From Tidjanibacter sp. (GTDB lineage Bacteria > Bacteroidota > Bacteroidia > Bacteroidales > Rikenellaceae), in contig JAFQNC010000035.1 in the NCBI GenBank assembly GCA_017396085.1, forward strand, positions 1 through 64,000: 64,000 bases of DNA, in the 5' to 3' direction. The position numbers and the translations under genes are program-made. This document shows, piece after piece, positions 1-41,533 of this stretch (within the stretch, counting starts at the first letter, position 1; the number at the start of each line of letters is the position of its first letter). Under the pieces are notes generated by a model, which was not told the origin of the DNA, did no database searches, and saw only the letters and a list, made by a program, of their open reading frames with translations.

Positions 1-165
1 AATTTTCAATTTTCAATTTTCAATTCAATCACAGACGCCCCCGCCCTTCGGGCACCCCCTCTAACTTAGAGGGGGACCTACGACCGCTCCTCCCCTAAGT
101 TAGGGGAGGTGGCCAAAGGCCGGAGGGGTTTGTCAATTTTGTATTTTGAATTTTGAATCCTCCCC
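1..165. repeat. Intergenic palindromic repeat cluster at window start
   Basis: Positions 1-30 and about 131-160 carry TTTTCAA/TTTTGAA heptamer runs. Positions 31-77 form a 47-nt GC-rich unit with two hairpins (GCCC-TTC-GGGC at 43-53 and CCCCCTCTA/TAGAGGGGG near 55-75). Positions 89-109 form another hairpin (CCTCCCCTA, loop AGT, TAGGGGAGG), followed by GGCC-AAA-GGCC at 111-121. The 47-nt unit recurs exactly, inverted, at 41392-41438. No gene is visible. The stretch lies downstream of the minus-strand helicase gene and may also act as its transcription end. Confidence 0.8.
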
Positions 166-34476: not shown

Positions 34477-35940
34477 CTATTTTTCGGGTGCGTGTTCAAG
34501 TGTGTAGCAGAGGTAGTTCCAGAACTTCTCTACCGAGGCGATGTTCACCTTCTCATCGGGCGAGTGGGGGTAGCAAATGGTGGGACCAAACGAAATCATA
34601 TCCATCTTGGGATAGACACCACCGATGATACCGCACTCCAAACCTGCGTGGATGGCCATCACTGCGGGCTCCTTGCCATAGAGAGCCTTGTAGCCCTCCT
34701 TCATTGTGTGCAGGATGGGCGAGTCGGGGTTGGGGTTCCAACCATCGTAGCCACCCGTGAGTTTCACGCTTGCACCGGCCATCTCAAAGATGGTTTTCAT
34801 CTGCAATGCGAGGTCCTCCTTCTCGGAGCGCACCGAACTGCGCAACAGGCTCATAACGGTGAACTTACCCTTCTCCGACACAACCCTTGCAAGGTTGTTG
34901 GAGGTCTGCACGAGGCCTGCCATCGAGGGGCTCATCTTGGCTACACCATTGGGGCAACCAACCACAGCGTCTATGAGGTCTTGTGTGTCGAAGATGTCGA
35001 TGCACTTGCCGGGGCACTTCACAGCCACAGCCTTGAACGAAATGCTATCCTCAATGCCCTTGTACTCCTCTTTGTAAATCTTCTCAAACTTCCTCACAGC
35101 CGAGAGGAATTTCTTTTCGTACTGCTTCAGCACAGCCACCGTGGCGAAGGCTTCCCTTGGGATGGCATTGCGCAGGCCACCACCGTCAATGTTGCACAGC
35201 AGCACGCCATACTTGTCCATAGTGTTCTTTAAGAAACGGCAGAGGAGTTTGTTGGCGTTGGCCCTTTGGAGGATAATCTCCATACCCGAGTGGCCACCTT
35301 TAAGGCCCTTAACCTCAAGCCTATAACCACTGAAATCGCTCTTGAGGATGCGACCGGTGCCATAGCGAAGTGTGGCGTTGAAGTCCAAACCACCGGCGCA
35401 ACCAACGTAGAGTTCGCCCTCGGTCTCGGAGTCGAGGTTGAGCATAATCTCGCCTTTGAGTTCGCCTGCTTTCAGACCCATAGCACCATCCATACCGGTC
35501 TCCTCGGTGGCGGTGAAGAGGGCTTCAATGGGACCGTGAACGAGGTCGGTGGCCTCCAATACTGCCATAATTGCGGCCAAACCGATACCATTGTCGGCAC
35601 CGAGGGTGGTACCATCGGCAGTTACCCAATCGCCATCAACGTAGGCTTGGATGGCATCGGTGTCGAAGTTGAACACCTTGTCGGAGTTCTTCTGGGGCAC
35701 CATATCCACGTGGGCCTGCAAAACGATGGTTTTGCGGTTCTCCATACCTGCGGTGGCGGGTTTGCGCACGATGATGTTCAGGGCCTCGTCTACGGTGTAG
35801 TCCAAGCCCAAGCCCTTCACGAAGTTGATGATGAAGTTTCGTGCGGCCTCCTCGTTGTGGGAGGGGCGGGGACACTGTGTGAGTCCTGCAAAGTTTTTCC
35901 ACACTCGCTGCGGAGCGAGTTCTGCAATGTTCTTATTCAT
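34477..35940 (-). CDS. pepD: Aminoacyl-histidine dipeptidase (PepD, beta-Ala-His dipeptidase)
   Basis: 487 residues. Cytosolic M20C dipeptidase that hydrolyses Xaa-His and other dipeptides. Seen: zinc ligands His77 and Asp79 in QAHVDMVPQK, TTLGADNGIGLA with bridging Asp, catalytic Glu in FTATEETGMDGA, GLKGGHSGMEI (lid-domain His), and the C-terminal AIHAGLECGIIGG. Full length. It sits upstream of the lipid kinase gene with a 5-nt gap, so co-transcription is likely. It adds to the peptide-degrading set in this window (pepT, M20, C1). Confidence 0.96.
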   Translation of the reverse strand: MNKNIAELAPQRVWKNFAGLTQCPRPSHNEEAARNFIINFVKGLGLDYTVDEALNIIVRKPATAGMENRKTIVLQAHVDMVPQKNSDKVFNFDTDAIQAYVDGDWVTADGTTLGADNGIGLAAIMAVLEATDLVHGPIEALFTATEETGMDGAMGLKAGELKGEIMLNLDSETEGELYVGCAGGLDFNATLRYGTGRILKSDFSGYRLEVKGLKGGHSGMEIILQRANANKLLCRFLKNTMDKYGVLLCNIDGGGLRNAIPREAFATVAVLKQYEKKFLSAVRKFEKIYKEEYKGIEDSISFKAVAVKCPGKCIDIFDTQDLIDAVVGCPNGVAKMSPSMAGLVQTSNNLARVVSEKGKFTVMSLLRSSVRSEKEDLALQMKTIFEMAGASVKLTGGYDGWNPNPDSPILHTMKEGYKALYGKEPAVMAIHAGLECGIIGGVYPKMDMISFGPTICYPHSPDEKVNIASVEKFWNYLCYTLEHAPEK

Positions 35941-36365
35941 AGGTCTTTTTTATGTTTTTTAGTCTGATTTGTCTGCTGTCTAACGCTGTGTGGGCGTTTT
36001 TATTATTCTGAGGGAGCGATGTAGCCAACAAGAAAATATTTACTAATTACTCTTTACTCTTTTTCTGCGACAAAGTCGCTGTTTGCAATTTCGACCACCC
36101 CTCCCAGCCTCCTGCTCGGCGAGGCCGCCGAGCGCAATTTCGACCACCCCTCCCGACCTCCCCTATCGTAGGGGAGGGGTACTTGGTGGTGCTATCAAAT
36201 GCAGTAGAAATATTTACTAATTACTCTTTACTCATTTTCTGCGGCAAAGCCGCTGATTGCAATTTCGACCACCCCTCCCGACCTCCCCTTTCGTAGGGGA
36301 GGAGTACTTGGTGGTGCTATCAAGCGTAGCGAAATATTTACTAATTACTCTTTACTAATTACTCT
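35941..36365. repeat. Tandem intergenic repeat block with covarying hairpins
   Basis: 425 nt without a gene. Units start with AAATATTTACTAATTACTCT near 36034, 36208 and 36331 (last truncated). Units 1 and 2 share a small hairpin (GCGAC-AAA-GTCGC at 36067-36079; GCGGC-AAA-GCCGC at 36241-36253), CAATTTCGACCACCCCTCCC, a larger hairpin (CCTCCCCT...AGGGGAGG near 36157-36177 and 36282-36302) and TACTTGGTGGTGCTATCAA. Unit 1 holds an extra GC hairpin (36114-36133) and a second GACCACCCC copy. The block lies between phoH and pepD, both minus strand. Confidence 0.85.
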
Positions 36366-37313
36366 TTACTCTTTGTTCTCGGCTCCTTCAAAGGCCTTCA
36401 CTATGCGGCTCACCAAAGCGTGGCGGATGATGTCCTTCTTGCCGAACTCAACAATCCCTATGCCATCCACCCCGCGGAGCATCTCCAACGTGCGCCCCAA
36501 GCCCGAATCGCTCTTGTGCGGAAGGTCAATCTGAGTCATATCGCCCGTAACGATGAACTTCGCATTGCGGCCCATACGTGTGAGGAACATCTTGATTTGG
36601 GGTAGGGTGGTGTTCTGCGCCTCGTCCAAAATCACAAAGGCATTGTCGAGCGTGCGGCCCCTCATATAGGCCAGCGGTGCAATCTGTACCACGCCCTCCT
36701 CCAAGAATTTCTGCAACTTGGCGGGCGGAATCATATCGTTCAGCGCATCGTAGAGGGGTTGCAGGTAGGGGTCCAGTTTCTCCTTGAGGTCGCCGGGCAG
36801 AAAACCCAAACGCTCGCCTGCCTCCACGGCGGGGCGAGTGAGGATGATGCGTTTGACCTCTCGGTTTTTGAGAGCCCCCACAGCGAGTGCTATGGCGGTG
36901 TAGGTCTTGCCACTACCTGCGGGGCCCACGGCAAACAGCAGGTCGTTGCTCCCGTAGAGTTCCACCATCTTACGCTGGTTTTCGGTGCGGGCTTTGACGA
37001 TGAGTCCGTTGTTGCCGTAGACAATCACATCTTTGGGCAAGATGGAGCCCTCCTCGGGCAATCCTCCGCTGAAAATCTGCTGAATTACGCTGGGCGAGAT
37101 GTGGCCATACTTGCCATAATACTCCCCAAGCGCACCCATTCTTCCCTCCAATCGGGCAATCTCCTCATCGGTGCCAATGGCCTTGATGGCGTTGCCTCGG
37201 GCTACAAGTTTCAGTTTAGGAAAGAGGTCGCAAACTCTATTGAAGTTAGAGTTTGCGACCCCATAAAAGTCGAGAAGTTCAATACCTTCGATGGATATAA
37301 TCTTCTCTGCCAT
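36366..37313 (-). CDS. PhoH-like ATPase
   Basis: 315 residues. Cytosolic P-loop ATPase of the PhoH/PhoL family, often tied to RNA metabolism near ybeY in other bacteria; ybeY is not here. Seen: N-terminal KH-like region (about 10-90), Walker A GPAGSGKT (130-137), ILTRPAVEAGERLGFLPGD, Walker B FVILDEAQN, and VTGDMTQIDLP. Full length. It begins 18 nt downstream of a small outer-membrane barrel gene on the same strand and may share its transcript. The tandem repeat block at 35941-36365 follows. Confidence 0.93.
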   Translation of the reverse strand: MAEKIISIEGIELLDFYGVANSNFNRVCDLFPKLKLVARGNAIKAIGTDEEIARLEGRMGALGEYYGKYGHISPSVIQQIFSGGLPEEGSILPKDVIVYGNNGLIVKARTENQRKMVELYGSNDLLFAVGPAGSGKTYTAIALAVGALKNREVKRIILTRPAVEAGERLGFLPGDLKEKLDPYLQPLYDALNDMIPPAKLQKFLEEGVVQIAPLAYMRGRTLDNAFVILDEAQNTTLPQIKMFLTRMGRNAKFIVTGDMTQIDLPHKSDSGLGRTLEMLRGVDGIGIVEFGKKDIIRHALVSRIVKAFEGAENKE

Positions 37314-41271: not shown

Positions 41272-41292
41272 CGAACCGTTACTCCTTTTTGT
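41261..41292 (+). terminator. Terminator overlapping the stop codon of the transporter
   Basis: Stem AAAAGGAGTAACG (41261-41273), loop AAC, arm CGTTACTCCTTTT (41277-41289) and T run. The TAA stop is within the 5' arm. Confidence 0.88.
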
Positions 41293-41309
41293 TTTTGTCA
41301 ACGTCTTTT

Positions 41310-41457
41310 TAATTAGTAATTAGTAAAGAGTAATTAGTAAATATTTTTCCTTCGTTTGGGTGGTCGAAATTGTGTGCACGGCCCCGTGCACGTCCCCCTC
41401 TAAGTTAGAGGGGGTGCCCGAAGGGCGGGGGCGTCTGTTTAAGAAAGGGCAGAAAGG
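41310..41457. repeat. Intergenic repeat cluster incl. second copy of 47-nt palindromic unit
   Basis: AATTAGTAATTAGTAAAGAGTAATTAGTAAATATTTTT (about 41311-41347) is the reverse complement of the units at 36.0-36.4 kb. GTGCACG-GCCC-CGTGCAC hairpin at 41374-41391. 41392-41438 is an exact inverted copy of 31-77. AAGAAAGGGCAGAAAGG at 41441-41457 repeats a motif near 3911. No gene. Confidence 0.88.
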
Positions 41458-41467
41458 TAAGGCCCTC

Positions 41468-41530
41468 TTTACTCTTTACTCTTTACTCTTTACTCTTTAC
41501 TCTTTACTCTTTACTCTTTACTCTTTACTC
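41468..41530. repeat. Nine perfect tandem copies of TTTACTC
   Basis: 63 nt of uninterrupted 7-bp repeat, ending 3 nt before the stop codon of the nucleoside phosphorylase gene (minus strand). Shorter runs of the same heptamer occur near 12040, 36050, 36225, 36350 and 43980. Confidence 0.97.
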
Positions 41531-41533
41531 TCT

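Follow-up and report, generated by a model that had tools for sequence, protein, structure and literature searches.

The gap between an M20-type peptidase gene and phoH in the analysed window (a stretch of 64,000 nucleotides of Tidjanibacter sp. DNA) is probably one site of a genome-wide set of non-autonomous, intergenic composite hairpin elements which resemble REP/BIME/REPIN sequences or MITEs and have no RAYT. The copies are extragenic and modular, occur in both orientations and are gained and reshuffled between close relatives. Their hairpin stems vary freely, with compensation on both arms, within a constant frame. The window belongs to the genome of a ruminant-gut bacterium (2.02 Mb, 40 contigs, 95% complete).

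A mosaic of repeats fills positions 36034-36370 between the two housekeeping genes (Table 1). The first-pass annotation had described a tandem intergenic repeat at 35941-36365; the site was correct, whereas the start had been set about 90 bases too early. The description as tandem holds in the sense of direct repeats, the corresponding parts lying 125 and 174 bases apart. The copies form direct-repeat families of 82 and 79 nt with 91-92% identity, themselves direct repeats with nested arms. The main features reported there were read again directly from the letters: the adjacent copies carry a compensated pair in the small hairpin, the larger hairpin is kept in both, and one copy has an additional GC hairpin. 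The arm GCAATTTCGACCACCCCTCCCAGCCTCC, which is duplicated here without its 3' partner, forms together with the next hairpin a unit of 49 bases that is repeated in three successive steps at another site (C37) of the same genome.

Table 1 Features of the phoH/peptidase gap and other copies in the window
Feature	Position	Strand	Basis and remarks
Complete composite of the same class, inverted ends	1..160	+	Read from letters
M20-type peptidase gene	34477-35940	-	Start at 35940; gene family by profile search
Heptamer tract 1 (TTTACTA ATTACTC TTTACTC), peptidase-side edge of the mosaic	36034..36061	+	Direct-repeat families D2/D3; exact match at 36039
Small hairpin copy 1, GCGAC-AAA-GTCGC = GCGACAAAGTCGC	36067..36079	+	Read from letters; compensating pair A36070-T36076
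Duplicated arm GCAATTTCGACCACCCCTCCCAGCCTCC without 3' partner	36085..36112	+	Direct reading
Extra GC hairpin GCTCGGCG-AGGC-CGCCGAGC	36114..36133	+	Letters and folding; commonest occupant of the slot genome-wide
Core module copy 1, conserved GCAATTTCGACCACCCCTCCCGA; outer arms ACCACC 36143-36148 / GGTGGT 36185-36190	36134..36199	+	
Core hairpin copy 1, CCTCCCCT-ATCGT-AGGGGAGG = CCTCCCCTATCGTAGGGGAGG	36157-36177	+	Direct repeats, folding, letters
Heptamer tract 2	36208..36233	+	Direct-repeat families D2, D3; exact match
Small hairpin copy 2, GCGGC-AAA-GCCGC = GCGGCAAAGCCGC	36241..36253	+	Compensating pair G36244-C36250
Core module copy 2; outer arms 36268-36273 / 36310-36315	36259..36323	+	Direct repeats, folding, letters
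Core hairpin copy 2, CCTCCCCT-TTCGT-AGGGGAGG = CCTCCCCTTTCGTAGGGGAGG	36282-36302	+	
Heptamer tract 3, extending into the final codons of phoH	36337..36370	+	TRF; ORF end 36366
phoH	36366-37313	-	Stop at 36366-36368; gene family by profile search
Further copy, alternative slot hairpin GTGCACGG..CCGTGCAC	41290..41531	-	TRF and letters

The repeat is not confined to the two copies first noticed. A query of 337 bases gave 55 DNA matches in the window's genome, where the word GCAATTTCGACCACCCCTCC (up to three mismatches) was found at 51 places versus 1 for the reversed pattern and the exact core CTCCCCT-N5-AGGGGAG occurred 81 times versus 0 for the reversed pattern. Within the genus, 10 of 23 genomes were matched, and ruminant-gut MAGs labelled 'Tidjanibacter sp.' or Rikenellaceae make up nearly all the named database matches.

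For the module alignment, the records were reduced to distinct sequences in which the core hairpin could be recognised (80 of 110). The copies proved to be sets of interchangeable hairpin modules edged by tandem tracts of 7- and 9-base units. The order of the modules is constant: tandem tract, slot 1, slot 2 just before AATTTCGACCACC, core hairpin and 3' arm, the last being one of several kinds in each copy. Slot 1 is occupied by GCCC-TTC-GGGC, GCCAC-TCC-GTGGC, GCTGC-TNC-GCAGC and other hairpins. Slot 2 holds most commonly GCTCGGCG/CGCCGAGC, otherwise GTGCACGG/CCGTGCAC or the small hairpin GCGNC/GNCGC; other named genomes have CTCTGCGCG/CGCGCAGA, GTGCGTG/CACGCAC or TCGCC/GGCGA in this place. 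Stems in slot 2 are thus exchanged wholesale, while the loop and the flanks stay constant. Six of the 54 contigs from the named database matches (L091, L122, L128, L130, L134 and L137), which judging by taxon and sequence are likely to be chance word matches, were left out of the slot-1 hairpin counts together with L123 and L124 (without a recognisable upstream module) and L118, the last being retained in the slot-2 module tally and in the 80-record alignment. L118 is a contig of a 'Clostridia' MAG which carries the Tidjanibacter repeat. Cross-phylum transfer was rejected for it and the contig was taken as chimeric, on account of a fused ORF resembling SecG/NusA close to the repeat and of Clostridia-like genes beside an IF2 gene (judged by eye). 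In one copy of the window's genome (L016, at C17), two slot hairpins form a chimera, GTGCACGGGGCCGAGC, with arms of mismatched types and pairing abolished, which suggests recombination within the loop common to the slot hairpins.

The 89-nt hairpin pairs fold better than dinucleotide shuffles on the + strand, both as DNA (z -4.7 and -4.5) and as RNA (z -3.9 and -3.7); the small hairpin alone is unexceptional (z -1.8 as DNA, -0.8 as RNA). The single compensatory pair of the window would on its own prove little. Covariation was followed across further copies. When 13 distinct copies of the genus were aligned (13 of 16 'S' rows), the variable pair of the small hairpin was G-C ten times, C-G twice and A-T once, and a one-sided state was seen in none of the 13. 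The covariation score of these copies was reached by 0 of 500 shuffles, a comparison uncorrected for kinship; such shuffle figures are indications rather than probabilities. In the GTGCAC-type slot, represented by eight distinct copies (the remaining three 'S' rows and 5 of the 22 'B' rows), three pairs are altered on both sides. Among 14 distinct hairpins of a related frame from phage contigs, one pair is found as all four Watson-Crick types. Compensated pairs in three independent alignments, together with the wholesale swapping of stems between constant loops and flanks, support the earlier proposal that the folded form matters. A different pair of the small hairpin is broken in one of the 13 copies and several other single-copy variants have a broken stem, which indicates that selection is not strict on every copy.

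The same site was compared in relatives. The phoH gene of genome G086 is 99% identical to that of the window, and the neighbouring site carries a different set of modules. It includes an 82-base module inserted within the loop of the core hairpin (L117:1914-1995), a 76% relative of which lies in another mosaic of the window's genome (L007:1339-1408). Among the 22 orthologous loci, the proper side of phoH was covered at 17 (L149, L150, L153, L154 and L155, read on the wrong side, were excluded): two, the window's own and that of G086, contain repeats and 15 do not. Four of these 15 (G083, G090, G096 and G109) come from genomes which have the family elsewhere. Among the named Tidjanibacter/Rikenellaceae matches, the orthologous site was recovered in one. 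Same-site differences from named close relatives were also found at C11 (compared with L139) and C17 (compared with L114).

The main rival explanation, and a substantial one even if we judge it unlikely, is purely mutational: template switching and slippage during replication would make and perfect quasi-palindromes and short tandem repeats, and recombination would spread them between sites, with neither an enzyme nor selection on the fold. Compensated states without one-sided intermediates are also expected from template switching inside a palindrome, and module chimeras, singletons that break a stem and the ragged edges of insertions point the same way. So do the tandem tracts beside the hairpins. 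In 124.7 kb around copies of the window's genome, TRF detected 131 arrays, dominated by those whose period is divisible by 7 (66) or by 9 (42), the other 23 having other periods; as a loose control, 38.8 kb covering ten phoH loci from genomes of the genus in which the repeat had no match, and in which the intergenic content was not matched to that of the repeat loci, contained one array. The period-7 and period-9 arrays comprise several unrelated motifs. The copy near 41290 is flanked by heptamer tracts of AGTAATT and of CTCTTTA (9.6 perfect copies), and the composite at the beginning of the window is edged by AATTTTC/AATTTTG heptamers. The latter composite begins with a heptamer tract and ACAGACGCCCCCG-[GCCCTTCGGGC]-CACCCCCTC..GAGGGGG; after a spacer come TCCTCCCC..GGGGAGG-TGGCCAAAGGCC-GGAGGGGTTTGT and again a heptamer tract. 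What mutation alone leaves unexplained is the constancy of flanks and loop around free stems, the recurrence of one architecture in distant genomes and the presence of whole composites at sites which are empty in relatives.

A functional RNA, in which transcribed hairpins serve as terminators, attenuators or mRNA stabilisers and the fold is under selection, would agree with the compensated pairs, the intergenic placement and the RNA folds beating shuffles on the + strand. The gene context makes this improbable. With genes predicted from codon usage, for which eight genes from the window served as the training set, all 50 mapped copies in the window's genome lie outside genes, in both orientations. 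At 34 sites with both neighbours present, 24 neighbour pairs are co-directional (the copy running against the genes in 14 and with them in 10), seven convergent and three divergent, and these orientations indicate no single working strand. No Rfam covariance model matched at gathering score in the region or in ten further loci, and the copies read in context have no T-run directly after the core hairpin. A strand-specific role as RNA, RNA being one of the options raised at first pass, is therefore not favoured, the more so as copies are present or absent between close relatives.

The other option, a REP/RAYT-like system, fits the elements in part. They are extragenic, numerous (the matches and mapped copies counted above) and composite, and inverted pairs of palindromes which form a larger hairpin were found at window positions 1-160, in the pairs of L214 and in the composite of L248. 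The transposase is missing. A profile search for the Y1 transposase (PF01797), suggested together with the proposal, gave no match in the window's genome and none in any of the ten repeat-bearing genomes of the genus. One of the 23 genus genomes has a match; it showed no match to the repeat, and the matching gene adjoins a transposase-B-like gene in the IS200/IS605 style (judged by eye). CTCCCCT-N5-AGGGGAG cores also occur in Bacteroidota outside the family; of ten such genomes, Y1 genes are present in seven and absent from three, among them the single-contig genomes G298 and G149. These two contain 46 and 19 oriented copies, respectively, of CCCTCCG-N-CACCTCCCC and no PF01797 match, so that a RAYT is not required for the abundance of such repeats. 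The RAYT/IS200 hypothesis was thus left unsupported for this family after PF01797 searches of 23 genus genomes and ten others. That these are classical REPs/REPINs moved by a RAYT which was lost or remained unassembled is very improbable, in spite of the REP-like anatomy. Immediately outside the outer stem, 13 of 42 modules have the tetramer CTAC, which is GTAG on the opposite strand; it is not a constant tag. The combination of a CGTC-type tag, a stem of 8-9 bp and a loop of 4-5 nt was not seen in the module alignments. As to MITE-like ends, complete composites have the matching ends ACAAACCCCTC..GAGGGGTTTGT, one of which is absent in many copies.

Elements of similar build occur outside the genus, and a broader class may stand behind those of Tidjanibacter. 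Of 395 Bacteroidota genomes sampled, 26 contain the core palindrome; the order ACCCCTC-hairpin-CTCCCC-loop-GGGGAG is present at some of these sites (L176, L179 and L188), and elsewhere there is the frame without the hairpin, or other repeats. In IMG/VR viral contigs, 92 stretches match the frame pattern, and the elements are often inverted pairs. Three frame-bearing contigs encode portal, capsid, terminase and tail proteins according to family searches, which places the elements between phage structural genes. Sixteen of 32 candidate contig pairs were read for empty sites. Related viral contigs differ at six positions, one having a composite that the other lacks; the insertion edges are ragged, without a clean target duplication at any of the six, and at some of them a ribosome-binding stretch was apparently replaced. 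Five sequences (L195, L226, L261, L200 and L236:6870) represent other repeat types or coding stretches and were not counted. L242, L248, L257, L264 and L236 are viral contigs in which the presence of a composite hairpin element between phage genes varies among relatives. A different palindromic insert, of the GTGTCATCCCGG type, was observed in L261 (8094-8257) in comparison with L205 and L231; it fits precisely between a stop codon and the following start codon, which abut in the empty L205 and L231.

Of the 62 hairpins of at least 4 bp in the phage set, 46 have a three-base loop; this is TNC in 35 of the 46 and is closed by C-G in 45, on 24 different stems. In the first slot of the Tidjanibacter copies, the loop is TNC in all five intact A1 variants and in many of the A2 type; TTT and TTG are among the exceptions. 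The Tidjanibacter elements resemble those from other phyla in architecture and loop, and any common ancestry is putative. Spread of the exact Tidjanibacter module by plasmids or phages found no support: a blastn search with 91 bases gave nothing in either. A scan of viral contigs with a 16-base word gave six matches, which is about the chance level by estimate, and a scan of viral contigs for PhoH found nothing.

The reading we prefer, composite elements multiplying without a RAYT, can be given a mechanism. The unit would spread as a fold of single-stranded DNA recognised by its shape, with any stem accepted and the loop and flanks set. The shape might be read by a trans-acting enzyme or in the course of replication or repair by the host. 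Modules would be swapped through recombination between copies and template switching, the 7- and 9-base edge tracts may arise by slippage, and effects on neighbouring genes (mRNA 3' ends, supercoiling) would be secondary. A fixed frame and loop with a stem that is free but paired is the trace expected of a shape-reading process. Against this explanation, the searches recovered neither an enzyme (Y1, PF01797) nor a transposition intermediate. More tentatively, and with a doubtful chance of being right, the elements may represent an undescribed repeat class, present in several bacterial lineages and in phages, whose RAYT-less spread reads the shape of single-stranded DNA and not its sequence. 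Its frame is CCCTC - hairpin - CTCCCC - loop - GGGGAG, often in inverted pairs; the stem is free but paired, and the triloop, TNC/GNA, has a closing C-G pair. The complement of the C-TNC-G loop, C-GNA-G, is the motif of unusually stable DNA mini-hairpins, which would point to single-stranded DNA, not RNA, as the folded form. PMC10527192 deals more generally with hairpins of extraordinary stability.

Among intergenic repeats, the BOX elements of Streptococcus pneumoniae are likewise built of separable modules, their sequence being unrelated; we know of no multi-slot exchange of hairpins in them. REPINs (PMC3116915) and REPs (PMC3733652) are defined by the GTAG tag and the RAYT. The present elements share with these REPIN/REP/BIME sequences the build of short palindromes outside genes, in many copies, with inverted pairs that form larger hairpins, mosaics and tandem clusters, and differ in having no RAYT in the repeat-bearing genomes searched, GTAG in a minority of modules, and several different hairpins per element with interchangeable stems. 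The CGTC-tagged REPs, as outlined in PMC3733652, are REP-like palindromes without a dedicated transposase, Bacteroidetes being among the phyla concerned; their stems measure 8-9 bp and their loops 4-5, and CGTC, TGTC or CCTC stands as an unpaired tag. They are similar in the missing dedicated transposase, whereas the elements found here are multi-hairpin composites framed by CCCTC/CTCCCC/GGGGAG. The nearest parallel in Bacteroidota is the BrickBuilt MITE of Porphyromonas gingivalis, which according to PMC4596501 is strictly intergenic and non-autonomous and joins a minisatellite to inverted-repeat ends. In BrickBuilt, one 23-nt minisatellite lies in a defined MITE, whereas the variable hairpin mosaic of the present elements is bordered by tracts of 7- and 9-base units. 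The heptanucleotide direct repeats of Beggiatoaceae (PMC4679880) are intergenic as well and have one motif (TAACTGA), in contrast to the several 7- and 9-base motifs tied to hairpin elements here. The literature searched, figure and supplement sequences and subscription papers aside, contained no description of the composite class. For the CGTC repeats, the discussion in PMC3733652 leaves open how transposase-less REP-like repeats originate and persist. A single genus with carriers, non-carriers and same-site mosaics, together with phage contigs with empty sites, makes this question testable, and the sequence rule of fixed frame, free stem and fixed loop does the same for a search for a shape-reading protein or repair process.

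A bias with respect to the replication strand is a prediction of a lagging-strand mechanism. Assigned by hand with dnaA taken as the origin, 15 of the 19 copies in G149 are oriented one way relative to replication. In G298, 28 of the 46 are oriented one way by the same procedure, many of the copies lying in tandem arrays, and the two genomes together do not establish such a bias. Two such arrays of hairpin elements in G298, a genome with no Y1 (C1:1457540-1458567 and 461613-461971), advance in steps of about 166 bases.
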